A stretch of DNA of 34,553 nucleotides from IMG/VR virus record IMGVR_UViG_3300049845_000395, positions 1 to 34,553 of that record. One strand, 5' to 3'. Origin of the DNA: a virus. Below, piece after piece: positions 5,356 to 27,158 of the stretch. The notes under the pieces were generated by a model that had not been told where the DNA came from, ran no database searches, and saw only the letters and a program-made list of their open reading frames with translations. The first letter of the stretch is position 1. Each line of letters opens with the position of its first letter. The position numbers and the translations under genes were made by a program.

Positions 5356-5655
5356 ATGCTTTACAATCTCAACGTTCCATTACTCGACCCCAAGGGAAAT
5401 GCCATCAAGCAAGAAGACAAAGACCTGACAGCGGCCGATCTATGCTATGAGCTGCTCTTGCTCAATGACCCACGAGCAGAACTCTCGGGCGGTGCGAAGC
5501 TGAAGAACGCCAAGCTGGCAAAGCGCATTGTTGATTGCTCTGAGAAGGTCGAGCTTGATGTGGATGAACTCAAGATTTTGAGAGACTTGGTGGGCAAGTA
5601 TGCAAGTGCTGCTGCTGTCTTTGGGTTTGAGTGCGTGATTGATGAGAAAGCTTAG
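5356..5655 (+). CDS. Hypothetical small phage protein, 99 aa
   Basis: The protein opens with MLYNLNVPLLDPKGNAI and then shows two or three amphipathic helices rich in Lys, Leu and Asp. Small proteins that begin in this way are frequent beside tail-fibre genes of tailed phages, but I know of no assigned function. It has its own SD (AAAGGAG) within a hairpin and follows the fibre gene after a 32-base gap. Its end overlaps the start of the lipoprotein gene by 14 bases, so those two are probably translationally coupled. Confidence 0.55.
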   Translation: MLYNLNVPLLDPKGNAIKQEDKDLTAADLCYELLLLNDPRAELSGGAKLKNAKLAKRIVDCSEKVELDVDELKILRDLVGKYASAAAVFGFECVIDEKA

Positions 5656-5947
5656 TCTGCTCTTGCTCACTGGCTGCGTTCTCGCACCAACCGAACCGCA
5701 TTCGCCTCTCTTCGTTCCTGCTCGGGTTCCTTTGGGCGGGGCTGTGTCAATCTATCTTTGCGAGCCTTATGAATATGGCACAAAACTAATGATCGACGAG
5801 AAGACCTTGCTGGGCACCATGGGCCAAGACCTCACCACAGGTTGCATGAAACTTTATTACCCAGGCTTCAATGTGGCTGGCTTGCGGACGATATCAGTAA
5901 AGAATTACACTTCTCAAATAGAGATTTTTGATTTCTTTACGAGGTAG
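5642..5947 (+). CDS. Small phage lipoprotein, 101 aa
   Basis: The N-terminus MRKLSLLLLTGC is a compact lipoprotein signal: two basic residues, a short hydrophobic stretch and the lipobox LTGC with Cys12. After lipidation the protein would sit on a membrane facing the periplasm or outer leaflet. The rest (about 90 residues) looks beta-rich, with Cys at about residues 39 and 65 that could pair. An in-frame TTG lies one codon upstream, but ATG 5642 is preferred. It sits between fibre genes rather than in the lysis module. It could be a late receptor-masking or superinfection-exclusion lipoprotein, or an outer spanin in an unusual place; this is inference. Confidence 0.6.
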   Translation: MRKLSLLLLTGCVLAPTEPHSPLFVPARVPLGGAVSIYLCEPYEYGTKLMIDEKTLLGTMGQDLTTGCMKLYYPGFNVAGLRTISVKNYTSQIEIFDFFTR

Positions 5948-8265: not shown

Positions 8266-8581
8266 TCAATTTCTCTTCAATGTTCCTTGTTGTGATTATT
8301 AAAACCCTTCCGTTCCTGGAACACACCATATCGTGGAAAGTGATCTGCTGACTTGATAACCTGTCTCCCTTGTTCTTGATCTCAATTCCTATGAACGTAC
8401 CATCAGGAAGTATGCCTAACACGTCTGGACTTCCAACCCCGCCTTGAATCCCACCCGCTGCCTGCCACCCGTTCCCACGATTGACTCCCATTGTGTTGTT
8501 TCGCCAAAGGAAGCACCCGAGCTCATTCCCGTACAACAATACTAGCCTTGTCATTTCCGATGTTGATAACCCGGATTTCAT
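8210..8581 (-). CDS. VRR-NUC domain nuclease, 123 aa
   Basis: The protein matches the stand-alone virus-type replication-repair nuclease (VRR-NUC, PD-(D/E)XK superfamily). It has WRNN (27-30), GGVGSPD with Asp53, the core EIK (Glu67 and Lys69) and the downstream QQ (78-79) before a helix. The family nicks or cuts structured DNA and is often encoded beside phage helicases, as here. ATG 8581 was selected because GCAGGTGG lies just upstream; GTG at 8590 and ATG 8554 are alternatives. The start overlaps the end of the helicase gene by 59 bases, suggesting coupled translation. Confidence 0.8.
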   Translation of the reverse strand: MKSGLSTSEMTRLVLLYGNELGCFLWRNNTMGVNRGNGWQAAGGIQGGVGSPDVLGILPDGTFIGIEIKNKGDRLSSQQITFHDMVCSRNGRVLIITTRNIEEKLNELKDLAILHKPRATVCS

Positions 8582-10121
8582 CAAAACCACCTGCTTTTCT
8601 GCGTGCTGCTGCTAACACAGGTGTATGCTTTTCGTGTGCTGTTTTCAATTGTCGGAATGTGGCTCTGTTGTGAGCATTGAAACCTGCATTCTTTGTGTTG
8701 TAAGCAAAATACACAGTGAATTTCTTGGCTCTAATTTCAAAGGAAACAACTCCTACCATTTGCCCATACTGACTAGGCTTCTCGCGTACCAGTGCGATGT
8801 TGAGATAACCCACATCCCAGCCAGCTGCCTTCAGTTTGTTGACTTCTGATTGAAACTCATCTCCATGGTTGATGAATACATGACCGCACTCACACTTGCG
8901 CTTGCCATTGGCAACGCGGTCTTTACACTGTGGGCATTCCTTCTTAGGAGCTTCGAATGGCGAGGCATCCTCCTTGATTCCAAGCTGTGCCAAAAGCGCT
9001 TGGTACTCTTTTGAGACTCCTTTACCAGAACTCCCGACTGCAGGAATCAGTGGATCATCGAGTGAGCCAAATCTTTGCCAGTTGCCTGTGAAGTCAAGAA
9101 ACAGACAGTTACCCTTCCCTGGTGAGATTCGAAGGCCACGACCGCTCATTTGAATCATAAGACTAACTGACTGTGTGGCGCGTAGGAACACAACGCAATC
9201 GATAACAGGTATGTCGATTCCTGTGGTCATCACACCGATGTTGCATATGGCTTTCACCTTGCCAGCACGGGCATCCGTCATGAGTCTGCTGCGCGCTTCG
9301 GTTGGAGTCTCTCCAGTGATGAGGGCAACCTGTGGTGTGTATTTTGCAATCTCGTTGCGCACGATTTCTGCATGAGCATGACTCACGCAAAAGAAAATGG
9401 AACAGACACGATTCTTAGCCAATCTCCACCATTCAGCAACGCATCTTCGCACGATATCGGGCGTGCTTGATGTGCGTTCAAGTTCTCCCAGATTGAAATC
9501 ACCTGCTGTGGTCTTGATGTTCGCTGTATTGATGATTGCAGGCAGCTTGGGGAAAACGTGTGGACAGAGAAACCCACGTTCTTGCAAATCCGCGACAGTG
9601 ATTCGGTACGTTTCCGTTTCCCAAAACTTCTTGTTTCCAAAGATCAGTCCTCCGCTCATTCGATATGGGCTACCCGTAAGACCCACGATGTATGTCGGTC
9701 TGACCGCTTCGATGATTTTCTGGTATTGGGTATCTTTCTTGTTGTCGACGAGGTGGCATTCGTCGATGAGCACAAGCGGGAAATGCTGCCTGAGCAACAC
9801 GCTATTCTTGGTCGCTGCGGAATCCCTACTGGCAAGAACGCAAACCCCATGAGGCTCTTTTCTTCCTAGGCTCGCACAGAATACCGAACAACGAATGCCT
9901 AGCGCTTCTATCTTCTCTCGATTTTGTGTGAGAATTTCTGCCTGGTGGCACAGGATAAGAACCTTGGCTCCTGGTGTCTTCTCCAGGTAGCGCTTGACGA
10001 TGCCTGCAATGATGAGCGATTTGCCTGCTCCTGTGGCAGCGGTTAGGACAACCCTTTTATGAAGTTTCAGAGCTTGCGCAGTGCGGTTGATTGCTTCAAC
10101 CTGATAGTCTCGGAGTATCAT
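8523..10121 (-). CDS. SF2 DEAD/DEAH-type DNA helicase, 532 aa
   Basis: A superfamily 2 helicase of the phage/UvrB-RecG-like type. Visible motifs are the Q-like RDYQ (4-7), Walker A AATGAGKS (28-35), Walker B DECH (120-123), motif III TGSPYR (149-154), motif V TTGIDIP (299-305) and motif VI QMSGRGLR (324-331). Behind the helicase core is a small metal-binding knuckle, Cys396-x2-Cys399...Cys410-x-Cys412, then a C-terminal extension of about 110 residues that recurs in phage helicases of this type. It likely unwinds DNA during phage replication or recombination. Its ATG forms an ATGA overlap with the Gp157-like gene; no strong SD is visible, so expression probably depends on coupling. Confidence 0.9.
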   Translation of the reverse strand: MILRDYQVEAINRTAQALKLHKRVVLTAATGAGKSLIIAGIVKRYLEKTPGAKVLILCHQAEILTQNREKIEALGIRCSVFCASLGRKEPHGVCVLASRDSAATKNSVLLRQHFPLVLIDECHLVDNKKDTQYQKIIEAVRPTYIVGLTGSPYRMSGGLIFGNKKFWETETYRITVADLQERGFLCPHVFPKLPAIINTANIKTTAGDFNLGELERTSSTPDIVRRCVAEWWRLAKNRVCSIFFCVSHAHAEIVRNEIAKYTPQVALITGETPTEARSRLMTDARAGKVKAICNIGVMTTGIDIPVIDCVVFLRATQSVSLMIQMSGRGLRISPGKGNCLFLDFTGNWQRFGSLDDPLIPAVGSSGKGVSKEYQALLAQLGIKEDASPFEAPKKECPQCKDRVANGKRKCECGHVFINHGDEFQSEVNKLKAAGWDVGYLNIALVREKPSQYGQMVGVVSFEIRAKKFTVYFAYNTKNAGFNAHNRATFRQLKTAHEKHTPVLAAARRKAGGFDEIRVINIGNDKASIVVRE

Positions 10122-10657
10122 GAGAGTCGAAGGTGTTTCTTTCTAGCAGCAACATAGGCGGCTTCGGATTCTACTTTGCCTTGCCTCAAATCGTCTTCAA
10201 AGTCAGACTTGAGTACATAGACTTCTTTCTTTTCCAGATACTCTGTGGGATAATTTTTAGGCTCCACAACGCGGGCGATAGCCACAGGCTGTGTATCATC
10301 CTTGAACTTCACAGCCTGCTTCCCACCACTTAAACACACCTTGATTCTTGAATTCAAACCTTGAGCTTCATCTTTGACAACTTCAATCGTTTGTTCCTCA
10401 AGATGCGCAAGGGCAGTCTCCAAGTAACGCGCTTTAGCACTCCAGAACTGCGCTGATTTTCGTGCTTGCTCGATTGAGCTCTGCAGTTGTTTCAATACCC
10501 AGACGCGCCTATCAACAGCTTGCTGCAGGCTTACGGAAGCATCGTGGAATGGCACCACAAGTTCATCAATCGGTAGGTCTTGCTCTTGCCTAAGCTCGAC
10601 TTCTCGAATCACAGCATGGAGTTGTTCCATTGCTTGGCTGAGAGGTGTGTTCACCAT
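10118..10657 (-). CDS. Gp157-like protein, 179 aa
   Basis: The protein has a long N-terminal coiled coil (about residues 15-105). A short beta-rich part follows, with GGKQAVKFKDDTQPVAI, and then a basic segment with the IP-like turn PKNYPTEYLEKKEVYVLKS. This order (coiled coil, small beta region, then a conserved YL/DK-like segment) resembles Siphovirus Gp157-family proteins, which sit beside single-strand annealing or SSB genes; their exact function is not settled. The gene overlaps the SSB-like gene by 7 bases and the helicase by 4. The family call rests on layout and neighbours and should be checked. Confidence 0.5.
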   Translation of the reverse strand: MVNTPLSQAMEQLHAVIREVELRQEQDLPIDELVVPFHDASVSLQQAVDRRVWVLKQLQSSIEQARKSAQFWSAKARYLETALAHLEEQTIEVVKDEAQGLNSRIKVCLSGGKQAVKFKDDTQPVAIARVVEPKNYPTEYLEKKEVYVLKSDFEDDLRQGKVESEAAYVAARKKHLRLS

Positions 10658-11115
10658 GGGATATCTTCTTCACTAGAAGGGCCAACTACATCCTTGGCTA
10701 GGAAGCCTGCCCGATTGGTTTTCTCTTTGTTGTAAAAGCCAACAGCCTTGGTGTTGATCTTCCCATCATACGTCTCTTGCTTGGTTCGAACCCATGCGCT
10801 TTGCCCAATCAACCACTGGCACATCTTGGCAGCGTCTTCATCGTCTTTGAAGCCTTTGATTCCAAAGCACCATAGGCAGTCTGCAAGTATCGTGCGGCTC
10901 GTTTTCAGCCACTCGGGTTGAGTTTCATCATCATAGATATGGCTTGACCAAGCTCGACCCTTTCCGCTTGACTCCTGCCATGTAAGCTTGATTGTCTTGC
11001 GACCGTTCTTTGCCTCGTGCTTGGCTTCGATGACAGTCAGATCGTGTGTGCCATTCTTGAGAGGCTTGAATTCTAATGGTTCAAGAACTTCGTGCTCTGC
11101 TACTGAAAAACTCAT
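10651..11115 (-). CDS. DUF669-type / SSB-like protein with acidic C-terminal tip, 154 aa
   Basis: The protein has a beta-rich core with the pattern YDLTVIEAKHEAKNGRK-like (here HDLTVIEAKHEAKNGRKTIK) and aromatic residues suited to ssDNA stacking, as in DUF669 phage proteins. It ends in SSEEDIPW, an acidic tip like the DDDIPF of bacterial SSB, which recruits partner proteins. It is encoded directly downstream of the Sak4-like ATPase, and Sak4-SSB pairs are a known combination. ATG 11115 (ATGA overlap, SD TTAGGA) is preferred over an upstream start at 11133. It probably coats ssDNA and hands it to the annealase. Confidence 0.75.
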   Translation of the reverse strand: MSFSVAEHEVLEPLEFKPLKNGTHDLTVIEAKHEAKNGRKTIKLTWQESSGKGRAWSSHIYDDETQPEWLKTSRTILADCLWCFGIKGFKDDEDAAKMCQWLIGQSAWVRTKQETYDGKINTKAVGFYNKEKTNRAGFLAKDVVGPSSEEDIPW

Positions 11116-11816
11116 ATTCCTAATTTCTCCCAAAACTCTGGTGTCTTTTCCAAGTCGACAATGTCAGGCATTTTGACCCGTGTCTTTGCCAGGAAGCTCG
11201 GCCTATCGGCCGTGTAAAGAACGCGCTTCCCAGTGCCCACTGGCCTTGTTCTGCCTTCATCATCTTTAAGTGTAATCTCTTCGCGCATGAGTAGCATCAT
11301 ATCTGCAGCACTCACAATGGTCTGCAAAGAGTCCTTGTGAATGTCCATTTCAGTTCGGTCGTAGGAATCTCCAAGAACTGGATCATTGACTGCTTTCACT
11401 TTGGTGTGGCCAATGAGAATCACATTCCGATTGCTTTGCAGGATTGCGTCAATCGGTTTCAGTGTCTCGATCCAGGAATCCTTCAGGTCTTGGAAACCTG
11501 CGCCAAACCCTGCGCGTGCAAGCGTCTTGATGTTTCTCTCTGAAAGAATCTTCGCCGTAAGCAGCCGCTCTATGGCTGTGGCAGAGTCTATGATGATGGT
11601 CTTGTACTCTGACTTGAATGCTGCAACAAAAGCCTCTCTGACTTGCTCAGGAGCCTTGATGCTGAGTCTTGCCACATCAAGCTCATCTGTTCCCGACTCA
11701 GCATCAATGAACAGAGGGTTGGTTGACTTGCTTGCAAGGGTTGTTTTTCCGATTCCTGGTGCTCCATAGAGTACAACGAATTTGCCTCTGATTTTCTTAC
11801 CTGTAGTGATTTCCAT
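11112..11816 (-). CDS. Sak4-like RecA-fold ATPase (single-strand annealing protein), 234 aa
   Basis: A short RecA/AAA-fold ATPase typical of phage Sak4 proteins. It has Walker A GAPGIGKT (18-25), an acidic loop FIDAESGTDEL (36-46), Walker B YKTIIIDS with Asp77, and the sensor-like ILIGHTKVK (133-141). Length agrees with the family (about 220-260). Sak4 proteins anneal or pair ssDNA with help from a cognate SSB, which here is the next gene. The start has a strong SD (AGGAGG, 11821-11827 region) and follows the HTH gene after 22 bases. Confidence 0.85.
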   Translation of the reverse strand: MEITTGKKIRGKFVVLYGAPGIGKTTLASKSTNPLFIDAESGTDELDVARLSIKAPEQVREAFVAAFKSEYKTIIIDSATAIERLLTAKILSERNIKTLARAGFGAGFQDLKDSWIETLKPIDAILQSNRNVILIGHTKVKAVNDPVLGDSYDRTEMDIHKDSLQTIVSAADMMLLMREEITLKDDEGRTRPVGTGKRVLYTADRPSFLAKTRVKMPDIVDLEKTPEFWEKLGI

Positions 11817-11838
11817 TGTGGTTCCTCCTATCAGGTGA

Positions 11839-12186
11839 TTAGAGCTTTCGTTTCAGTGAGTCAAGGGCACGCTTCAGTACACGACGCTTCTGTTCAAAGT
11901 TAGTATGTGTTTTCTCCAAGTATGCAGCAATGCGTTTTGCTGTTTCCAGAGAGACCTTTTCTCCAGCCAGCCCTCGATGAATTGTCGCGTTGGATACGTC
12001 AAGAAGTTCTGCAAGGATGTTGAGCCTTCCACAGTAATACACGGCAAGCTCAATAGCTTCGGCAGCTTCTACGCTATTCGTCGAAAAGCGGCCTTTCGCT
12101 CGGAAGTAGCTCTGTGATGTTGAACTTTTGACCGTTTTTTTCAATCCACTGGAGTTGTTTGTCGTAGTCTCTAACTTCTGTTGCAT
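11839..12186 (-). CDS. Small HTH protein, 115 aa
   Basis: The C-terminal half carries a helix-turn-helix-like stretch, LAELLDVSNATIHRGLAGE (58-76), followed by a basic tail. The first 35 residues are low-complexity Ser/Thr/Lys and are probably flexible. ATG 12186 has a good SD (AAGGA) but lies inside the preceding gene, giving an unusual overlap of 113 bases; no later ATG is available. It may regulate its own operon from the control region 12410-12636, or it may be a DNA-binding recombination accessory. Confidence 0.55.
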   Translation of the reverse strand: MQQKLETTTNNSSGLKKTVKSSTSQSYFRAKGRFSTNSVEAAEAIELAVYYCGRLNILAELLDVSNATIHRGLAGEKVSLETAKRIAAYLEKTHTNFEQKRRVLKRALDSLKRKL

Positions 12187-12409
12187 CTGTTTCCTTGCTC
12201 ATCACACCTGTTTGCACACCAGCAAGATGTGCTCTGAAGTTTTCATCCAACAATTCAATGCGTGTTTTGTACTCTTTTGCAGATTGTTTTGCATCTGCTT
12301 TAAGTGAATCAAGTTCTTGTTGCAGTTCTGCAGCCTTGACTCCTGCCTCCAGTCTTTCCGCTTCCGATAATTTAACTGGAAGAAATGCGCGTATTGGTTT
12401 TGTTTCCAT
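12074..12409 (-). CDS. Hypothetical coiled-coil protein, first gene of the leftward operon, 111 aa
   Basis: After a basic start the protein is mostly helical, with a coiled-coil stretch (about residues 16-60: EAERLEAGVKAAELQQEL onward). A short beta region follows, reading DYDKQLQWIEKNGQKFNITE, before the end. Small phage proteins with this shape are common at the head of early operons; function is unknown. The ATG has SD GAGG seven bases upstream and a promoter candidate with its -10 at 12432-12437. The 3' end overlaps the HTH gene by 113 bases in another frame. Confidence 0.6.
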   Translation of the reverse strand: METKPIRAFLPVKLSEAERLEAGVKAAELQQELDSLKADAKQSAKEYKTRIELLDENFRAHLAGVQTGVMSKETDATEVRDYDKQLQWIEKNGQKFNITELLPSERPLFDE

Positions 12410-12431
12410 GCTATGCCTCGTTGTTTGGCAC

Positions 12432-12460
12432 AGTGTACTGATTGATTAGCCAGTTTGCAA
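12432..12460 (-). promoter_or_regulatory. Candidate sigma-70 promoter for the leftward operon
   Basis: Read on the minus strand, TTGCAA (12455-12460) and TACACT (12432-12437) are separated by 17 bases. Each box matches four of six consensus positions. Transcription would start near 12425, about 15 bases before the ATG at 12409. Confidence 0.5.
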
Positions 12461-12508
12461 CCTTGACAATTAAATGCGCTTGATGAAAAGTGGCAAAACT
12501 TTCCCTAG

Positions 12509-12553
12509 AAAAAAAATAACCCGGTCAATCACTTGCGAGCTTCGACCGGGTTA
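12509..12553 (-). terminator. Minus-strand intrinsic terminator-like hairpin in the control region
   Basis: A perfect 10-bp inverted repeat containing AACCCGGTC (12518-12526) and GACCGGGTT (12544-12552), closed by one A-T pair, has a 17-base loop. On the minus strand the stem is followed at once by ATTTTTTTTC, the hallmark of an intrinsic terminator. No minus-strand gene lies upstream of it, so it probably blocks antisense transcription entering from the primase gene or acts as an attenuator. Confidence 0.6.
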
Positions 12554-12570
12554 AAAGCACTCGTAGACGG

Positions 12571-12592
12571 AATGTTCCTAACTAAGAACATT
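12571..12592. promoter_or_regulatory. Operator-like palindrome
   Basis: AATGTTC and GAACATT form a perfect 7-bp inverted repeat separated by 8 bases. It lies between the minus-strand terminator and the primase-helicase start, in the region expected to hold the rightward promoter. It could be a repressor or activator site, for example for the HTH protein at 11839-12186. Confidence 0.4.
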
Positions 12593-12636
12593 TTCTTACT
12601 TAAGAGGGTTAACTCCACCATAGATAAGGTACTTAT

Positions 12637-14643
12637 ATGCATGACTCTGATGCCCTGTCAACAATACTCTCACCGTTTAAAATCATTCCATTAAAATCGA
12701 ACAGCAAAATGCCCATATCATCGTGGGTCAATCAGAACTATTCGGTGTTTGATTTTCTTCCAGGTGGGAATCGGGCAATAGTCATTGGCAACGAGCATTG
12801 TGTTCTCGATGTTGAAGGGCCAAGTAAAGAAGTCAACGGTCTGCCTCATATCCAAGGGCTGATTCAGGCGCATGGCGACTTGCCAGAAACTCTTTCTTGG
12901 AAAACTCCGAGCGGTGGAGAAGCCTATCTTTTCTCTGTTCCACAGCCGATAGCCAACATGACTCTGGCAAGAACCGTTGGGCTCGAACTGCGCTCGGGAC
13001 AGCATTATCATTTGATTCCTGACTCGGTGGTGAACGGCAAACCTTACGAATGGGAAACAATCGAAGAGATTGCAGAAATTCCCGACTGGCTCTTGACTTA
13101 TTTTTTAGAAGGAACTGCAAAAAGAAAAACAGCCAGGCAGGAATCAGGCACATCTGAGGCTAGTCCGTCACGGTTAGTGTTGGATGCGCTCAACTTCCTT
13201 AACCCAACTTGTGACTACGAGCAATGGGTCAAAATTGGCATGGCCTCCAAGGCTGCAGGACTTGCCTTCGAAGCCTGGAAGGCTTGGAGCCTGTGTGGTG
13301 AGAATGCGTGCAAAGACGAAACTGAATACCTTCGCAAATGGCAAAGCTTCACCAAGGCAGGCTTAGGGCCCGGAACGCTGATTCGGATGGCAAGAGAACA
13401 AGGGTATGAGCCGCCCAAAGAAGAAGTCTATTTACCAGTTCCAAAACTACCTGAAGAGCGATTCATAGCATCGTTTCCAGAGCCTGATGGGCTTTTGAAG
13501 GAACTTAAGAATTACTTCATCGATGTTTCAAAGCAAGAACAGTATGCCCTTGGAGCAGCATTGTTCTGCATGAATGTTGTTACTCAAAGAAGTTATGATT
13601 TCGTTGAAGCTCCACAGAATTCTTACCATGTGTTCATCGGTGAAACAGGTTCGAAAAAATCAACAGTGATGAGCAAAGCTTTTGATCTATTGCGTAATGT
13701 AGATGAGAGTTTTGCGATGCATGACCCTCGTTCCGTGGCTAGCTTCAAGAAACAACTAGCAGAAAATCCAAGCCGAGCTCTAGCAATTGATGAGATAGGA
13801 CAAGAACTCCTTCGTGCGCTCTACTCGCGCAATAGCTCACATCAAACGGAAGAGAAGTGGCAGAAACTTCTTGAGATGCACGGCAGGCCGCTTTACCTGG
13901 AAGGGCACGGGACCGCAAAGAAAGAGGATTCCGTTTCAGGAGTTCTTGACCCAAGAATTTCTTTTTGTGCCACAGGTACGCACTCCGATTTTGAAAAACT
14001 TTTAGGGCATGCGGATTTCGTAAATACAGGACTTTTTTCACGCCTAGTCGTTTGGCGGGGGCTTGAACTTCCTCCAGAACGGTTTGTATTTGGGCAAAGC
14101 AAAGTGCCATTGCCAAGAATTCTGATTGACAAACTTAAAAAATTTCATCCAGCCTTTTCTGTTGCGAAAACTTCGTGGGAACCAAGAAATCTGCCTGCTT
14201 CGACTGAAGCCACCCAATTCATGGCTGATTTTAAAGAGACCGCATTCAACCCAATCTATGCAAACCACACCAGAGCTCGATCATTGATTGAACGATCTTT
14301 CTACCAAGGAATCCAGTTTTCATTCATACATGCCATTGGGCGGGCTGCAGAGGCTGTTGAGCTGTTAGACGCAGAATGGGGTTTGAACGTCGCTCTTCAA
14401 ATCTTAAAACAGTCTTTAGAGGCGTTCCAATTGTATGAACAAGACCAAGTAGACCGTTTAGTGGATGTTGTCATTGAATTTCTCAACAAGCACGGGCCAA
14501 AGCCTTATCGTAATGTTCAGCAGAACTGCAAAGCCTTCCGCAGTGTAGACCGAAAAACAAAGACCGAAGTTTACAATGCTTTAAAAGAGAGCGGCAAAGT
14601 TCGCATCGATTCAAAAACCGGTTGCCTGACCCCATACCGATAA
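12637..14643 (+). CDS. Primase-helicase (Prim-Pol-like, PriCT and SF3-like ATPase domains), 668 aa
   Basis: Residues 10-155 resemble the bifunctional primase-polymerase domain: metal motif LDVEG (Asp58, Glu60), a strand-turn SGGEAYLF (92-99), then LELRSG with HLIPDS. Residues 178-255 fit a PriCT-2 helper domain (CDYEQWVKIGMA ... KWQSFTKAGLGPGTL). Residues 280-668 are a DUF3987/SF3-like helicase with Walker A GETGSKKST (335-343) and Walker B ALAIDE (Asp385, Glu386). The protein should prime and unwind at the phage origin, which probably lies just downstream. The usual His of Prim-Pol motif II is Glu here, so primase activity is uncertain. SD AAGG lies seven bases before the ATG in a small hairpin (12624-12636). 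Confidence 0.82.
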   Translation: MHDSDALSTILSPFKIIPLKSNSKMPISSWVNQNYSVFDFLPGGNRAIVIGNEHCVLDVEGPSKEVNGLPHIQGLIQAHGDLPETLSWKTPSGGEAYLFSVPQPIANMTLARTVGLELRSGQHYHLIPDSVVNGKPYEWETIEEIAEIPDWLLTYFLEGTAKRKTARQESGTSEASPSRLVLDALNFLNPTCDYEQWVKIGMASKAAGLAFEAWKAWSLCGENACKDETEYLRKWQSFTKAGLGPGTLIRMAREQGYEPPKEEVYLPVPKLPEERFIASFPEPDGLLKELKNYFIDVSKQEQYALGAALFCMNVVTQRSYDFVEAPQNSYHVFIGETGSKKSTVMSKAFDLLRNVDESFAMHDPRSVASFKKQLAENPSRALAIDEIGQELLRALYSRNSSHQTEEKWQKLLEMHGRPLYLEGHGTAKKEDSVSGVLDPRISFCATGTHSDFEKLLGHADFVNTGLFSRLVVWRGLELPPERFVFGQSKVPLPRILIDKLKKFHPAFSVAKTSWEPRNLPASTEATQFMADFKETAFNPIYANHTRARSLIERSFYQGIQFSFIHAIGRAAEAVELLDAEWGLNVALQILKQSLEAFQLYEQDQVDRLVDVVIEFLNKHGPKPYRNVQQNCKAFRSVDRKTKTEVYNALKESGKVRIDSKTGCLTPYR

Positions 14644-14660
14644 CCCCACCTCCTCTCCAA

Positions 14661-15151
14661 AATGTTGGCGGAATTGACAACCCCCTCCAAAACACGTAAT
14701 TTCATCCTAACAGCATAAATACATTAGTTTTTATGCTGTTGTGGGCGGAAAGTGTTGGCGGCAAAACAACAATGTTGGCGGCTCCCGACAACACCTACGG
14801 CACAGTGATTATTAGACAATTCGGATTTGTTGTCGTGTTGGCGGCATTCTAAGACGGGGTGATCTTTATAAGATGACACTCTTAGGGAACCTATTTTTAA
14901 AATCTTCGATTTTAAACACTTTTATCCTAAAAATCTGCTCCATTCTTGCGCTTCTTTAAAACAGACAAAAAAACTTCAATAATCACTGTGCGGAACGTCA
15001 TATCACGTAACGTGACCTACATTTGTGCAGAAATGAAGTCTTCTTTCTCCACCCCCCTTATATAGACAACACGCCAACAAAGACAAAAAGTTGAACAATG
15101 AGTGTGAGGAACGTGTTGTTTGGTAACGACAACATGTTGTTTCACGCCAAC
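14661..15151. repeat. Iteron-like GTTGGCG repeats (4 direct, 2 inverted)
   Basis: Consensus ARTGTTGGCGG occurs at 14661-14671, 14751-14761, 14771-14781 and, as CGTGTTGGCGG, at 14834-14844. The core appears inverted as CGCCAAC at 15072-15078 and 15145-15151. GACAACAC also recurs at 14787-14794 and 15065-15072. Direct copies on one side facing inverted copies on the other suggest binding sites for an initiator. Confidence 0.65.
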
Positions 15152-15190
15152 AAATAATAAAATATCAATGATAACAGTGTGGAACGGAAT
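14978..15190 (+). repeat. Second degenerate repeat family in the origin region
   Basis: Three related units share CAAT...GTG..GGAACG: from 14977, 15096 and 15166. The first and third match at 17 of 21 positions. The core AATAATCACTGTGC at 14978-14991 is repeated exactly, in inverted orientation, at 14800-14813. Confidence 0.5.
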
Positions 15191-15318
15191 ATGAGCACAT
15201 GTTTTGTTGAATTATTTATTTCATTGTGTAGAAGTAGAGCAAAATATAACAAAATAGTTCTCAAGTTCTTCGAAAGGAATGCCGTTATATAAAGCAGAGG
15301 CAATTCTGCCTCCCAAGG

Positions 15319-15332
15319 TCCGCCGAGGCGGA
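15319..15332 (+). promoter_or_regulatory. Hairpin next to the SD of the 15345 gene
   Basis: TCCGCC (15319-15324) and GGCGGA (15327-15332) form a 6-bp inverted repeat whose 3' arm runs into the SD-like GGAGAAAGG before ATG 15345. A very similar hairpin precedes the next gene. Confidence 0.5.
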
Positions 15333-15344
15333 GAAAGGTTTCCG

Positions 15345-15563
15345 ATGAAACTCTCAGCAAAAACCCTCTACCCAAACCTCTCCAAGAAAATGCTTGCCTC
15401 AATGGCAAAGTCATTTGCTCAAACTTCCGACAAATGGATTGTCGTGTCGGCAAACGGCACAAGCTTCCACACAACCGAAGCTCAGGCTTTGGAACAACGC
15501 GCAAAGCTCAAAGAAGCAAGCGTGTTTGGCACAGTTCACCTTGTGAACGATGTGTCCTTCTGA
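15345..15563 (+). CDS. Hypothetical small early protein, 72 aa
   Basis: The first right-pointing gene after the origin region. ATG 15345 is chosen because GAGAAAGG lies just upstream; an open frame extends back to 15279 but the extra 22 residues lack an SD. The product starts with MKLSAKTLYPNLSKKMLA, is basic, and probably folds as two helices followed by a small beta hairpin. Function is unknown. Expression probably starts from a promoter in 14644-15300, so it should be made early. Confidence 0.5.
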   Translation: MKLSAKTLYPNLSKKMLASMAKSFAQTSDKWIVVSANGTSFHTTEAQALEQRAKLKEASVFGTVHLVNDVSF

Positions 15564-15603: not shown

Positions 15604-15864
15604 ATGAATATTAAAGCACTTCAGGAATTCTACGAAACCCAACGCCAGATTGCAGAGCTCACTAAGCTGGCAGAGACCCTCAAAACGACCCTTAAAACCG
15701 AGATTCCAAGGGGTGAGCACACCTTTGGCGACTTCAAGGTGTCTTACGTGGAAAGAACGCGTATTGACCTCGATAAGGCCCTTGTGACCGAAGTGCTTGG
15801 AGAGAAGGTGAAGGAATGCGAGAAAATCAGTGCATGCGAAGTGTTCATGGTGAAGAGAATATGA
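15604..15864 (+). CDS. Hypothetical small helical/beta early protein, 86 aa
   Basis: Residues 3-33 form an amphipathic coiled-coil helix. A small beta part with GEHTFGDFKVSYVERTRIDLD follows, and then a short helix. Many phages encode proteins with this pattern (helix, then a G-x-F/Y-V strand followed by ER..LD) in early regions. None with a settled function is known to me. The SD is AAGGA behind a hairpin. The stop forms an ATGA overlap with the HTH gene. Confidence 0.55.
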   Translation: MNIKALQEFYETQRQIAELTKLAETLKTTLKTEIPRGEHTFGDFKVSYVERTRIDLDKALVTEVLGEKVKECEKISACEVFMVKRI

Positions 15865-16040
15865 CTCCCTTGCGTGCAGCAAGGGCGCAGCTGGGGGTGG
15901 GGGCCCCCGAGATGGCCCGACTCTTGCATGTGAGCCTGAGGACTTACCAGAGATGGGAAGCTGGCACGAAACACTGTCCGCCAGGGGTTATGGCCTTCGT
16001 GCGGCTGATTCTGGAGAAGAGACGTGAAGATCATGATTGA
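15861..16040 (+). CDS. Mini XRE-type HTH protein, 59 aa
   Basis: Residues 2-45 are a minimal Cro/C1-type helix-turn-helix: APEMARLLHVSLRTYQRWEAG is the recognition unit, followed by PPGVMAFVRL. ATG 15861 gives an ATGA overlap and fits the HTH boundary; the frame is open further upstream inside the previous gene but without an SD. It could tune early transcription, perhaps by acting at the origin or operator region. It is much shorter than a lysogeny repressor and has no dimerisation or cleavage domain. Confidence 0.7.
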   Translation: MTPLRAARAQLGVGAPEMARLLHVSLRTYQRWEAGTKHCPPGVMAFVRLILEKRREDHD

Positions 16041-17915: not shown

Positions 17916-17989
17916 AGGTTGGTAGTTTAACGGTAAAACCACTGATTCCAAATCAGTAGATTAGGGTTCGATTCCCTGCCAACTTGCCA
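17916..17989 (+). tRNA. tRNA-Trp (anticodon CCA)
   Basis: A complete cloverleaf of 74 bases, with CCA encoded (17987-17989). The acceptor AGGTTGG pairs with CCAACTT with one G-T pair. The D stem is GTTT/AAAC with GG in the loop, the anticodon stem is ACTGA/TCAGT around TTCCAAA, and the T loop is TTCGATT. The discriminator G and the A-T first pair fit bacterial tRNA-Trp. It may support translation of Trp-containing late proteins or replace a tRNA damaged by host defence. Confidence 0.9.
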
Positions 17990-21476: not shown

Positions 21477-21873
21477 GTACAACCCTGCCCACTGCGAAAC
21501 CGTTCAGAAAATGGCTCAGGCTGGGTACTCAATGCGCGCATTTTGTGCGTACATCGGAATCACTTACAACACTGCATTGCTGTGGGCTCGTGAGTACGAA
21601 GAGTTTCATGAGGCATGCAAGGTTGCAGATATGAAACGACACTTGTTTTACGAGAAAACAGCCATTGAAAACCTGCATAACGTCAAATTCAACAGTGCAC
21701 TTTTCAACAAACTGACAAGTGCAATCATCAAGTGGGAACAGCCTGCGCACACTGAAGTGCATATCGAAAACAACGTGGTTGATTTCAAGCCTCCTCATTT
21801 GATGAGCGCCAATGAGCGGTTGGAAAGAATCAAATCCTTACAGAGCCAGTTGCAATTGAATGCGCAACCTTGA
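21418..21873 (+). CDS. terS: Terminase small subunit, 151 aa
   Basis: An N-terminal HTH (about residues 20-55, TVQKMAQAGYSMRAFCAYIG then TYNTALLWAREYEEF) fits the DNA-recognition domain of small terminases. The middle is helical for oligomer formation, and the C-terminus would contact the large subunit. ATG 21418 has SD AGGAG. It overlaps the large subunit gene by 14 bases, the usual order. It should bind the packaging site and load TerL. Assignment rests on HTH plus position. Confidence 0.75.
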   Translation: MKVEVLRKKPRLDEARKLNKYNPAHCETVQKMAQAGYSMRAFCAYIGITYNTALLWAREYEEFHEACKVADMKRHLFYEKTAIENLHNVKFNSALFNKLTSAIIKWEQPAHTEVHIENNVVDFKPPHLMSANERLERIKSLQSQLQLNAQP

Positions 21874-23230
21874 AGCTGAGTTGCTCGGACTCTTAGAATA
21901 CGAGAAACAACTTCTGTCGATTTTTGACCGTTGCTTTGAGAAACAAAAGCAAGCAGCGCTTCATCGTGGAAAAAGAAAAGTCATTCGGTGCTCTCGCCGT
22001 GCAGGCAAGACAGAGCTCGCAGCAACGAAACTCATTCAATCCGCTCAGTCTGCACCGAATGGCATTTCACTTTATGTGGCTTTGACTCGGAAGAGTGCAA
22101 AGAAACTTCTTTGGAGCAGGCTTAAGCGTATGTGCCAAGAGCTTGGGCTTGAAGTTCAGGCTGCTGAAACCGACCTCATCCTTAAGTTTGGCAATGGCTC
22201 TGAAATCTGGCTGGCAGGAGCGAACCAAGAAGATGTGGCAGAAACGCTTCGAGGCCATTCCTATCGCGTTGTCATTCTCGATGAATGTGCTTCCTTCCGG
22301 GGGCACATTGATGAGCTCATTGAAGAGATTCTTGAACCTGCTCTCATTGATGAAGATGGCGAGCTTTGGATTATGGGAACACCTTCGTGGGATTTCTCGA
22401 GCTATTTCTACAAGGCAAACCACAAGCCTGAGGAATGGGATTCCTTCCATTGGACTCTGTTCGATAACCCCCATATTCCAAATGCTCAGGCTTGGGTTGA
22501 CGATTTGAAGCGGAGGCGCGGTTGGAGTGATGACAACCCCATCCTTCTTCGCGAGTACTTCGGCCTCTGGATCAAGACCATGGAGCAGATGGTTTACCTG
22601 TTCAATCCATTGCGAAACGTGTTTTCGAGTCTACCAAACCTCCAGCACAATGTGCTCGGTGTTGACCTAGGATTTGAAGACAAGATGGCATTTAGTATTG
22701 TTTCTCATGCAGAGCATTCACCAGTGGCCTACGTCAGGCACTCAGAAAAACATCATCACATGCTCATCCATGACGTGGCCCAAAGAATTAAGAAGTTCCA
22801 AGCGGAGTTTGAGATACATAAAGTAGTGATTGATGAAGGCGGTCTTGGGAAATCAATTGCTGAAGAGCTTCGCCAAAGATATCAAATCAACTGCCAAGCT
22901 GCACAGAAACAAAACAAAAGGGCTTACATTGAGCTTTTCAATTCAGAGCTTAGGGAAGGTCGTATCCTTGTTGCTGAAGACAATCCTGTGGTCAAAGAAT
23001 GGAACACACTCATTTGGGATGATGAGTCAAAGAAGGTCGAAAAACCCGGCCTTGCAAATGACGTGAGTGATGCCACACTTTACGCTTGGCGTGAAAGCTT
23101 CTACTACTCTGAGGAGCCTGTCATACAGAAACCAAAGTTTGGAAGTGCAGAGTTTTTTGACGCTGAAGAAAAGCGTATGCTCGAAGAATCTGAAAAGTCA
23201 GTTCAGTCAAACTCCAGTTCATGGTGGTAA
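21860..23230 (+). CDS. terL: Terminase large subunit, 456 aa
   Basis: The ATPase motor has Walker A CSRRAGKT (44-51), Walker B VVILDE (Asp141, Glu142) and the coupling motif GTPSW (173-177). The C-terminal RNase H-fold nuclease shows GVDLG (Asp269), VVIDEGG (Asp325) and NDVSDATLYAW (Asp404), the three metal ligands. Length (456) fits phage TerL. It pumps DNA through the portal and cuts the concatemer. Its stop lies just before the portal start. Confidence 0.95.
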   Translation: MRNLEAELLGLLEYEKQLLSIFDRCFEKQKQAALHRGKRKVIRCSRRAGKTELAATKLIQSAQSAPNGISLYVALTRKSAKKLLWSRLKRMCQELGLEVQAAETDLILKFGNGSEIWLAGANQEDVAETLRGHSYRVVILDECASFRGHIDELIEEILEPALIDEDGELWIMGTPSWDFSSYFYKANHKPEEWDSFHWTLFDNPHIPNAQAWVDDLKRRRGWSDDNPILLREYFGLWIKTMEQMVYLFNPLRNVFSSLPNLQHNVLGVDLGFEDKMAFSIVSHAEHSPVAYVRHSEKHHHMLIHDVAQRIKKFQAEFEIHKVVIDEGGLGKSIAEELRQRYQINCQAAQKQNKRAYIELFNSELREGRILVAEDNPVVKEWNTLIWDDESKKVEKPGLANDVSDATLYAWRESFYYSEEPVIQKPKFGSAEFFDAEEKRMLEESEKSVQSNSSSWW

Positions 23231-23232
23231 CA

Positions 23233-25080
23233 ATGAATCAACTCTGGTGGGAACTCCAAGGCGAGCAAGCTGCGAATGCTCTATTCGCTGAAATCAATCA
23301 AATCACTAAGCACGAATCAACTCGAATGCTCTCTCTGCTCAGGTACCTCAAAATGTACACAGGCAGAGACAACATGGCAGTGAGCACTGTGGATTTGGTC
23401 TCGCGTCTTCGCATGATCAAGGACGTGTCAAAAATTGTGGAAACAGGCCTTGAATACAATGTGGTGCAGTCAGCAATCAACACTTTGCATTCAAAAATTT
23501 GCAAACGTAAAGAGCGAGTTCGGTTTCTGACTAGTGGCGGAGATTGGGAACTTCAAAGACAAGCACAACGGGCTGACAGGTTTATTTATGGGCTCTTCAT
23601 GGATGCGCGTGTTCATGAAGTGAACATGAAGCAGACTCTTGATTCCTATTGGTCTGGCTCAGGGTTTGTTCATGTGTACCACAAGATTCAGCAAGGTAAG
23701 CTGAAGATTTGCGTCGACCGCATTCATCCTGCAGAGATTTGCGTTGATTTTGAAGACGCTGAGAATGGCGAACCTCGCACCATGCGTAGAATCAAGGCTG
23801 TTCCAGTGGAAGCGGTGCGAAACGCATTCCCACAGCTTTCTGGTGAGCTTGATTTGGCCATGGCTCGCATTCAAGGAGAGTCTGGTTATGACTCGGTGAC
23901 AAAGCGCATCCTTGTGGCAGAGGCTTGGCACCTTCCTGATGATGAAGGGAAAGGCGGGAAGCATATTCTTGCAATCAAGAACTCAATCCTTGCTGAAGAG
24001 GAATACCCTCATTCTGAGTTTCCGATTATCAAACAGGATTACCTTTGGGCTCCTTTCGGGTATTATGGAATTGGTATTGCTGAACTCTTGGTGACACACC
24101 AGAGAGAGCTTGATCAACTCGTGCAATACCGGCAACTTTGTTTGAAGCGTGGCAGCAACCCGCGTACCTATGTCGAACGGTCTTCGCAGGTCGATATCAA
24201 CGAATTGAACAACGCACCGAATGCGATTGTGAAGTACTCTGGTACCATGCCAGTTCAGGAAACTAGACCTCCATACGCCGACCAACTGGCCAGAGATATC
24301 GAAGAAATCTTTCAGAAAGCCTACATGGAAGTGGGTATCTCCCAGCTGTCTGCCAACTCACAAAAACCTGCAGGGCTTAATAGTGGTAAAGCTTTGCGTG
24401 AATATTCTGATATCGAATCTGAACGATTCCAGACCGCGGGACAAAACCGGCAAAACTGCCATATCGATATTGCGCGCGCCATGATTCGCGAAGTTGAAAC
24501 AATCAAAAAGTGCATCAAAAACAATGTGCCCGGTTATCGCAAGGCTGATAAGACAATTCTTACCTATGATCGAGAAATGGGTGTTGAGAAATTTGAGCTC
24601 GATGATTTTGAATTCATTGCAAACGAGTATCTTATCCAAGCGCATAATGTTTCGATGTTCCCACAGAAACCAGAAGGCCAACTTGAATTTGCTCAAGAGC
24701 TTGCAAGTGCAGGTTTGATTGACCAACAAGATGCGCTTGAGCTTCTCGACTTTCCAGACACACAACCAGTGATTAACCGCAACCTTGCGAGTCAGAGATA
24801 TGCGCGCAAGGTGATTGAGCGGATGCTTGATGAAGTGATCTTCATTTCTCCAGACCCATACGAAGACCATGCAAGAAACTTCTCGATTGCGAGCAAGTAC
24901 TACAATGATGCCAAACTAAAAGATGTTGATGAGGAGAGATTGAGCCTTTTGAGGCAATACATGGATGCAAACATGGCTCTTATCAAGAAAGCAGAGCAAG
25001 AAGCGCAAATGATGCAAGCTCAACAGCAACCACAACAACCGATGCAAACAACTGAACAACAACTAGCGTTACAAGGTTAA
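23233..25080 (+). CDS. Portal protein, 615 aa
   Basis: A long helical protein directly after TerL, with features of podoviral portals: a wing of mixed alpha/beta in the first half (SGFVHVYHKIQQGKLKICVD), a helical stem-like stretch, and a Gln-rich, charged end (MMQAQQQPQQPMQTT). ATG 23233 has SD GGTGG and follows the TerL stop by two bases; an upstream ATG at 23221 would overlap TerL. It forms the dodecameric vertex ring for DNA entry. Family assigned from position, length and fold-like pattern. Confidence 0.85.
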   Translation: MNQLWWELQGEQAANALFAEINQITKHESTRMLSLLRYLKMYTGRDNMAVSTVDLVSRLRMIKDVSKIVETGLEYNVVQSAINTLHSKICKRKERVRFLTSGGDWELQRQAQRADRFIYGLFMDARVHEVNMKQTLDSYWSGSGFVHVYHKIQQGKLKICVDRIHPAEICVDFEDAENGEPRTMRRIKAVPVEAVRNAFPQLSGELDLAMARIQGESGYDSVTKRILVAEAWHLPDDEGKGGKHILAIKNSILAEEEYPHSEFPIIKQDYLWAPFGYYGIGIAELLVTHQRELDQLVQYRQLCLKRGSNPRTYVERSSQVDINELNNAPNAIVKYSGTMPVQETRPPYADQLARDIEEIFQKAYMEVGISQLSANSQKPAGLNSGKALREYSDIESERFQTAGQNRQNCHIDIARAMIREVETIKKCIKNNVPGYRKADKTILTYDREMGVEKFELDDFEFIANEYLIQAHNVSMFPQKPEGQLEFAQELASAGLIDQQDALELLDFPDTQPVINRNLASQRYARKVIERMLDEVIFISPDPYEDHARNFSIASKYYNDAKLKDVDEERLSLLRQYMDANMALIKKAEQEAQMMQAQQQPQQPMQTTEQQLALQG

Positions 25081-25937: not shown

Positions 25938-27158
25938 ATGTCAGTTGACTTGACCACGTTTGCCCCCGCGCTCAAGACTTACTACCCAGACGACAAGATT
26001 GAAAAGCAAATCTATTCTGACAGACCTTTGCTTGCCATGTTTCCGAAAGATGAAAACTTTGTTGGTGATTCATCCAAAGAATCATTAATGTATGGCAACC
26101 CACAGAACATTTCTGCAACCTTTGCAACCGCACAGGCTGAGACACACAACTCCGAGCGTAAGGCATTCTTGCTCACTCGCGCTCGTAAATACGGTTTCGG
26201 TTTCGTTGATAACGAGACAATCGAAGCATCTGCAAACGACCGAGGCGCGTTTCTCCGGGCTCTCACAGATGAAATTGACAACGCAATTGACGGCGTTTCG
26301 CAAGCTCTTGCAATTGATGCTGCTCGTGACTCCACTGGTGCAATCGGTCAACGCGCAAGCATCTCAACCAACACAGTCACTCTGACAAACCCTGAAGAAG
26401 CTCGTATGTTCGAAGTGGGTATGACTGTGATTGCCGCTTCTGCAAAGAGCGGTGGTTCACTTCGTACAGGTTCGACAACTGTTGCTGCTGTTGACTCTCT
26501 TGCTGGAACAATCGAGTTGACATCTGCGGCTGCAATCTCTGGTTTTGCAGACAACGATTACTTGTTCCGTTCGGGTGACCGAGGCCTTTGCGTTGCTGGA
26601 TTCCAAAGCTGGATTCCTTACGACAGCCGAGCTTCTGCTCTTTCCGCAAGCTTCTTCGGTGTGACTCGTTCGGCTAACCCAACACGCCTTGCTGGTGTGA
26701 CCAAAGACCTCTCAAGCTTCCCAATCGAACAAGCTGTTTCGAGAGCCTTGACCTTGGTTGAAGCTGAAGGCGGTAAGCCAGACTATGCATTCATGTGCTT
26801 CGAAGATTTTGAAGACCTCCGAAATGCTCTTGGCTCCAAGGTTCAGTACCAAGAAATAGTAACCAATGCTTCGCAAGTGAAGTACGCAACGATTGGTTTC
26901 TCTGGTATCAAGATCCACGGCTCAAACGGTGTTGTGACTGTTCTTGCAGACCGAACAATTCCTGCAGGTCGGTTGTTCATCATGACTTCCAAGAGCTGGA
27001 AGCTCCGGTCACTTGGCAAGCTTGTTGACCTATTCAAAACAGATGGTCTTCCGTTCTTGCGACAAGCAACCGCTGATGGTGTTGAAGTGCGATTGAAGAC
27101 ATACGCAAACATAGTTTGCCGCGCTCCTGCTTACAACGGTCAATTCAAGCTTCGTTAA
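25938..27158 (+). CDS. Major capsid protein (HK97-fold type), 406 aa
   Basis: The protein follows the scaffold and has the composition of a coat protein. It has a charged N-terminal arm and a spine-helix-like part (DRGAFLRALTDEIDNAIDGV, about 102-121). An inserted beta domain rich in Thr and Ser (150-205) and a C-terminal strand-rich part (VVTVLADRTIPAGRLFIM) follow. These fit the HK97-like coat of short-tailed phages; I cannot assign a subfamily. The SD is inside a hairpin, and a second hairpin spans its stop codon. Confidence 0.82.
   Translation: MSVDLTTFAPALKTYYPDDKIEKQIYSDRPLLAMFPKDENFVGDSSKESLMYGNPQNISATFATAQAETHNSERKAFLLTRARKYGFGFVDNETIEASANDRGAFLRALTDEIDNAIDGVSQALAIDAARDSTGAIGQRASISTNTVTLTNPEEARMFEVGMTVIAASAKSGGSLRTGSTTVAAVDSLAGTIELTSAAAISGFADNDYLFRSGDRGLCVAGFQSWIPYDSRASALSASFFGVTRSANPTRLAGVTKDLSSFPIEQAVSRALTLVEAEGGKPDYAFMCFEDFEDLRNALGSKVQYQEIVTNASQVKYATIGFSGIKIHGSNGVVTVLADRTIPAGRLFIMTSKSWKLRSLGKLVDLFKTDGLPFLRQATADGVEVRLKTYANIVCRAPAYNGQFKLR

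Follow-up and report, generated by a model that had tools for sequence, protein, structure and literature searches.

In SaPI Rep and SCCmec Cch2, the C-terminal domain binds iterons that lie directly downstream of the proteins' own genes (PMC7581432). The alpha protein of P4 combines primase, helicase and a repeat-binding C-terminal winged helix in a single chain, and its primase domain is of the bacterial type (PMC4234260). The origin of pRN1 is located downstream of orf904, whose product, ORF904, ends in a winged helix (PMC4234260). For the AEP-PrimPol phages BIP-1 and BPP-1, Berkner et al. proposed a large stem-loop origin rather than iterons, and pRN1 is likewise without iterons (PMC4234260). 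DUF3987 and related ATPases were predicted to be novel helicases by Kazlauskas et al., who regarded them as experimentally uncharacterised (PMC5862659). No description of iteron arrays for the PrimPol-helicase class of initiators was found in the literature searched, which lay largely outside the subscription journals.

We analysed a 34,553-bp stretch of viral DNA (the window), comprising the whole of IMG/VR virus record IMGVR_UViG_3300049845_000395. Positions 14663-15152 are very probably a replication origin, with iterons arranged as an inverted two-part array immediately 3' of the gene that encodes its own Prim-Pol/DUF3987 initiator. This reading rests on the array and how far it exceeds chance, on the domain architecture of the neighbouring gene product, and on the recurrence of differing arrays after homologous genes.

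Gene translations inspected by eye indicated that the window derives from a tailed phage, with the following structural and packaging genes:

21860-23230: terminase, read from translation
23221-25080: portal, read from translation
25938-27158: coat, read from translation

A leftward block at 8523-11816 encodes a DNA helicase, an SSB-like protein and a Sak4-like recombinase, and is followed by the rightward primase-helicase gene. The early-gene region also holds a tRNA gene at 17916-17986 (Rfam tRNA, 63 bits). Contig L003 is 99.98-100% identical to the window and lacks approximately 56 bp at window positions 21845-21902, the junction of the terminase gene and the gene preceding it.

The proposed initiator and its domains are as follows:

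12637-14643, + strand: primase-helicase gene (Pfam, PHROGs, profile, AlphaFold2 model)
residues 14-151: Prim-Pol
residues 182-252: PriCT-2
residues ~284-596: MCM-like AAA+ / DUF3987
residues ~601-668: predicted winged helix
14437-14643, + strand: part of the gene for the predicted winged-helix domain, adjoining the array (AlphaFold2 model)

Pfam matched Prim-Pol (PF09250, 5.5e-17) followed by PriCT-2 (PF08707, 4.6e-12), the combination that marks AEP PrimPols of the pRN1/NrS-1 group; the bacterial-type primase domain of a P4 alpha replicon was not what was found, the domain present being an AEP Prim-Pol. The DUF3987 match was barely over the cut-off with the whole protein. A profile built from the window primase and four phage homologues matched pRN1 ORF904 in the PDB. 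An AlphaFold model from the single sequence had a pLDDT of 36 and was unusable, and its place was taken by an AlphaFold2 model from 57 sequences with a mean pLDDT of 84. In this model, residues 284-596 aligned with MCM AAA+ domains (Z of ~18, rmsd of 3-4 A over ~255 residues), and the Prim-Pol part matched 1rni by Foldseek. The C-terminal region is conserved among relatives and was modelled with high confidence in the order helix-helix-helix-strand-strand, which we read from this secondary structure as a putative winged helix. As modelled, the domain order fits a self-contained initiator with primer synthesis, a motor and a putative site-recognition domain.

Taking 15346 as the start of the next gene, for which 15279 offers another in-frame ATG, the stretch after the primase-helicase gene contains no gene. 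Six copies of GTTGGCG lie within 490 bp of this gene-free DNA, four direct (+ strand, 14664, 14754, 14774 and 14837) and then two inverted (- strand, 15072 and 15145). The original prediction had listed these six motifs in the same orientations, with the first four coordinates 3 bp too low and the last two exact. Its description of the region as gene-free, AT-rich and hairpin-bearing also held, given the start at 15346, with 70-78% A+T in the AT-rich stretches and a 14-bp hairpin. The array has a two-part layout in which the left half reads TGTTGGCGG, the right half is inverted, and an AT-rich centre lies between:

14663-14671, + strand: iteron TGTTGGCGG, left half (word count, repeat analysis)
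14709-14740, no strand: AT-rich hairpin in the left half, 14-nt arms (folding z -5.3)
14740-14748, + strand: degenerate iteron TGTGGGCGG (one-mismatch scan, repeat analysis)
14753-14761, + strand: iteron TGTTGGCGG, left half
14773-14781, + strand: iteron TGTTGGCGG, left half
14786-14793, - strand: degenerate iteron, CGACAACA on the + strand (one-mismatch scan)
14828-14835, + strand: degenerate iteron TGTTGTCG, adjoining the iteron at 14836 (one-mismatch scan)
14836-14844, + strand: iteron TGTTGGCGG, left half
14850-15060, no strand: centre between the halves, at most 72% A+T, putative unwinding region
15072-15079, - strand: inverted iteron, CGCCAACA on the + strand, right half
15127-15134, - strand: degenerate inverted iteron, CGACAACA on the + strand (one-mismatch scan)
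15145-15152, - strand: inverted iteron, CGCCAACA on the + strand, right half

Across the whole window GTTGGCG is mildly enriched (8 copies vs 3.5 expected), and six of the eight copies fall inside the 490 bp. When regions matched to the array region in size and composition were simulated with a Markov model, the most frequent four-letter 7-mer reached five copies once in 1000 regions and six copies never. Allowing at most one mismatch to CGCCAACA, 10 sites were counted in 14663-15152, compared to a shuffle mean of 0.31 (maximum of 3 in 500), and the array was the top-scoring 8-mer cluster in a scan of the whole window. The region therefore has more short repeats, direct as well as inverted, than chance would give, as in an iteron origin; the one ~100-nt stem-loop without iterons that defines a pRN1-type origin was not seen, as iterons are present and no single 100-nt stem-loop is. 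As single-stranded DNA the array region folds well (z -5.1), through the 14-bp hairpin and long-range pairing that includes the inverted iterons. Neither a match to an Rfam family nor an exact DnaA box was found in the array region.

A second, longer repeat (AATAATCACTGTGCGGAACG-like, AAYRATNASWGTGNGGAACG-like), overlooked in the original prediction, interleaves with the right half of the octamer array. Its four copies, three on the + strand and one inverted, differ at up to 4 of 20 positions, and the element is possibly a promoter or another binding site:

14794-14813, - strand: second repeat element AATAATCACTGTGCCGTAGG
14978-14997, + strand: second repeat element AATAATCACTGTGCGGAACG
15094-15113, + strand: second repeat element AACAATGAGTGTGAGGAACG
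15167-15186, + strand: second repeat element AATGATAACAGTGTGGAACG

GC skew had been suggested as a check on the origin. The detrended minimum, at 15709, did fall near the array, but fourfold-degenerate sites showed no consistent sign change there. Skew therefore neither supports nor refutes an origin at this position, since transcription and gene strand explain the minimum equally well.

A nucleotide search of phage records with the array region gave no match. IMG/VR was also scanned with patterns (the iteron together with the second element, that element on its own, and paired TGTTGGCGG), and these scans returned chance matches, coding repeats and unrelated sites. In L237 (1064-1283), a pair of CGCCAACA-like words and a pair of inverted TTGTTGGCG words lie ~170 bp apart near an integrase-like gene, and L268 (4194-4413) has the same word spacing; these words are possibly attP arm sites unrelated to the window origin. 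Three sister phages (L005-L007) were found by their terminases, which are 65-74% identical to that of the window. Neither a primase orthologue nor an array of the window motif could be detected in them, and they are therefore uninformative on motif conservation. Compared to window positions 8523-14643 they carry a different replication module, in which Sak4-like and SSB-like genes recur in part and no Prim-Pol match was found.

No close relative of the window primase was found in the collections searched, a single-sequence protein scan of IMG/VR included. The family comparison uses homologues that are 17-23% identical to it, and therefore bears on the place and layout of arrays rather than on TGTTGGCG itself. 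Viral homologues were collected from IMG/VR with the family alignment and clustered at 60% identity, giving 35 clusters including the window and four phage records. Each tile of flanking DNA was scored by its most over-represented 8-mer relative to Markov expectation, and a score of at least 10 was counted as an array. Arrays were present in the first 400 bp past the stop codon in 8/35 clusters, compared to 0/35 second tiles and 2/819 other tiles (P 1.5e-10); the array of the window spans more than 400 bp, which keeps the window out of these eight. Independent bacterial contigs from GTDB, restricted to loci not close to the viral set, gave a similar result, with arrays after the gene in 8/27 vs 4/599 elsewhere (P 1.8e-9), and three of those four were in the final 400 bp ahead of the gene's stop codon.

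To exclude a bias from non-coding DNA, the comparison was also limited to intergenic gaps of at least 150 bp. Across both sets, arrays occupied 13/34 gaps after the gene, 0/22 before it and 2/120 others (viral, 9/22, 0/12 and 2/64; GTDB, 4/12, 0/10 and 0/56). The two other viral gaps, in L147 and L220, are farther downstream of their primase genes. Each holds a second, different 8-mer array in an intergenic gap past the primase stop codon (GTGGTAAC, six copies at ~+1531 in L147; AAATCAAC, seven copies at ~+1189 in L220). Recurrence directly downstream of the initiator-helicase gene was thus observed in relatives. About two thirds of the clusters had no array by the exact 8-mer test, and the first distant phage homologues examined (L136-L139) had none of comparable strength; the pattern emerged only with the family survey. 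Arrays follow genes with DUF3987, VapE-like, DUF5906 or AAA_25 motors, and the rule therefore tracks the PrimPol-initiator class and not one type of helicase.

Most arrays in relatives start less than ~200 bp from the stop codon, and a two-part, inverted layout is common. The window halves are ~230 bp apart, and those of most relatives are closer together. Representative arrays were as follows:

L147, AATTCCTC: five + strand sites at 7-99 and five - strand sites at 159-252 after the stop codon
L173, TCCCTCAA: six + strand and four - strand sites
L166, AGTGTCAC: four + strand and four - strand sites
L177, TAGGGACA: eleven copies
L426 (cyanobacterial contig), AGCCAACA: thirteen copies after the gene

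By the same count, phage phiAxp-1 has four + and four - sites and the window has four and two, and similar arrays of other words were found in L220, L197, L193 and L209. PhiAxp-1 is an isolated Achromobacter phage (KP313532.2; L226, ~5418-5658) in which TGTTTTCGG occurs at +11, +31, +86 and +102, followed by inverse copies at +181, +190, +222 and +243. This array directly follows the replicative primase/helicase gene, is absent from the annotated features shown for the record, and is close to the window TGTTGGCGG in word and orientation. In BPP-1 (L223, AY029185.2, ~26607-26710), two tandem copies of TTTGCCTCG and two copies of the inverted word CGAGGCAAA are located between bbp28 and bbp27. 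This 2+2 inverted CGAGGCAA set, ~0.5 kb downstream of bbp29, the Prim-Pol gene, is a candidate origin; as far as the 2014 figure legend describes it, the stem-loop proposed there is a different structure.

The primases of L147 and L173 are 71% identical and the DNA downstream of them is 60% identical, with matching site positions. One array is built from TTCCTCAA and the other from TCCCTCAA, the same base being changed in nearly all copies. A coordinated change at about ten sites is as expected from a trans-acting binder that switches specificity. L196 and L217, from the same cluster, have CTTTCAA arrays. Within this group, the putative winged helix reads RTQF-DKRQRDE where the arrays are CCTCAA and RASQWLKSRDRNE where they are CTTTCAA; this covariation of winged-helix residues with the array word is suggestive only, as the sequences are related.

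Non-conservation of the repeats had been named as grounds for rejecting an origin. Place and layout were found to recur, in favor of an origin, while the octamer word varies between lineages; the array thus appears to be conserved as architecture (position and, often, an inverted two-part layout) and not as sequence. Since different arrays occupy one spot after many distant primase genes, it is very likely that the window array is where this phage starts replication and that its octamers are recognised by its own primase-helicase. The original prediction of an iteron origin bound by the primase-helicase is strongly supported by this comparison, in which arrays recur directly after homologous genes. 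In the mechanism we propose, the C-terminal winged helix would bind the TGTTGGCG octamers as duplex DNA, and two opposed sets of protein would load on either side of the AT-rich centre as face-to-face MCM-like hexamers. The hexamers would then melt the centre, the N-terminal Prim-Pol would make the first primers on the exposed strands, and replication would probably proceed in both directions.

The octamers could instead serve mainly as primer-start sites on a single-stranded template, read by the Prim-Pol and PriCT-2 domains while another factor opens the duplex. There is precedent in the NrS-1 polymerase, which starts at TTTGGTTA, an 8-nt template word present in two copies, one per strand, in the middle of the genome (PMC8718748, PMC7102993), and the primase of the array-bearing phage phiAxp-1 has an HBD domain of the NrS-1 type. 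We nevertheless consider it unlikely that priming is their main role, as inverted two-part sets of 8-13 copies, spaced nearly in tandem, are a better fit to cooperative duplex binding than to a single priming start, and the GTG priming motif of the pRN1 origin can be mutated with replication retained (PMC4234260). The SCCmec primase favors starting at the iteron sequence (PMC7581432), so duplex-binding and priming roles can coexist, and the octamers may have priming as an additional role.

Regulation offers another explanation, in which a regulator, for example the small HTH protein encoded at 15861-16040, would use the repeats as operators or promoter sites to control the rightward early operon. 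A rightward run of small genes does come after the array, and the second repeat element contains AATAAT-like hexamers with weak -10 box scores. Promoter-like sites, however, numbered 4 vs a shuffle mean of 1.9, which is close, and the arrays track the 3' end of the primase gene, with none in the 22 gaps before it. The HTH protein had also been put forward as a possible binder, and this too appears unlikely: no homologue was found at the array-bearing primase loci of the viral set, to which the screen was confined, and in the sister phage L007 the neighbouring gene is retained, with a small HTH-like frame after it, where primase orthologue and array are both absent. Overall, we regard a regulatory role as very improbable. 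Repeat arrays are found at packaging, partition and termination sites as well, and one of these cis functions might have come to lie after the primase gene by chance. Such a coincidence would have to extend to viral and bacterial contigs, several helicase types and lineage-specific octamers, all of which link the array to the primase-helicase gene, and it is the most improbable of the explanations considered.

With the array read as an origin, the family-wide regularity makes the origins of PrimPol-helicase phages, a large class, directly testable, the array origin being a variant of known iteron origins. Uncultured phages repeatedly carry initiators of this kind with DUF3987, VapE-like or DUF5906 motors, and candidate origins could be named from sequence alone by looking for an array of inverted octamers within a few hundred bases past the primase gene. 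The L147/L173/L196 group provides a natural initiator-site series for a change of specificity across many sites simultaneously, and origin loading would gain a compact model in a protein that joins MCM-like helicase, primase and origin binder and has a defined site. A broader proposal, which we offer tentatively and hold to be rather doubtful, is that AEP-PrimPol-helicase phages and elements generally have their origin in an inverted iteron array 3' of the gene, with a lineage-specific octamer that co-evolves with the initiator and doubles as the duplex loading site for opposed MCM-like hexamers and the primer-start template for the fused Prim-Pol. If true, the stem-loop origin of the BPP-1 type would give way to inverted iterons.

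The window locus resembles SaPI Rep and SCCmec Cch2 in that the origin, with several short repeats, would lie right after the initiator-helicase gene, and the C-terminal duplex-binding domain of those helicases may have a counterpart in the predicted winged helix. Primase and helicase are usually separate in SaPI and SCCmec and the primase is of another type, whereas in the window an AEP Prim-Pol is fused to an MCM-like DUF3987 helicase; the window iteron also differs in being an octamer in two inverted sets. P4 alpha likewise has primase, helicase and C-terminal winged helix (predicted in the window) in a single protein, although the window domains are Prim-Pol and DUF3987. NrS-1 is similar as a phage PrimPol with an octamer suspected as the origin (PMC8718748, PMC7102993), but its octamer is present in two genome copies, is read as template and forms no array, unlike that of the window. 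The likeness to pRN1 ORF904 extends to the fusion of an AEP Prim-Pol with a helicase, the C-terminal winged helix (again predicted in the window) and an origin 3' of the gene. The window differs from the stem-loop proposal for pRN1, BIP-1 and BPP-1 in having inverted iterons; as these can pair in single-stranded DNA, the stem-loop and iteron descriptions may overlap.
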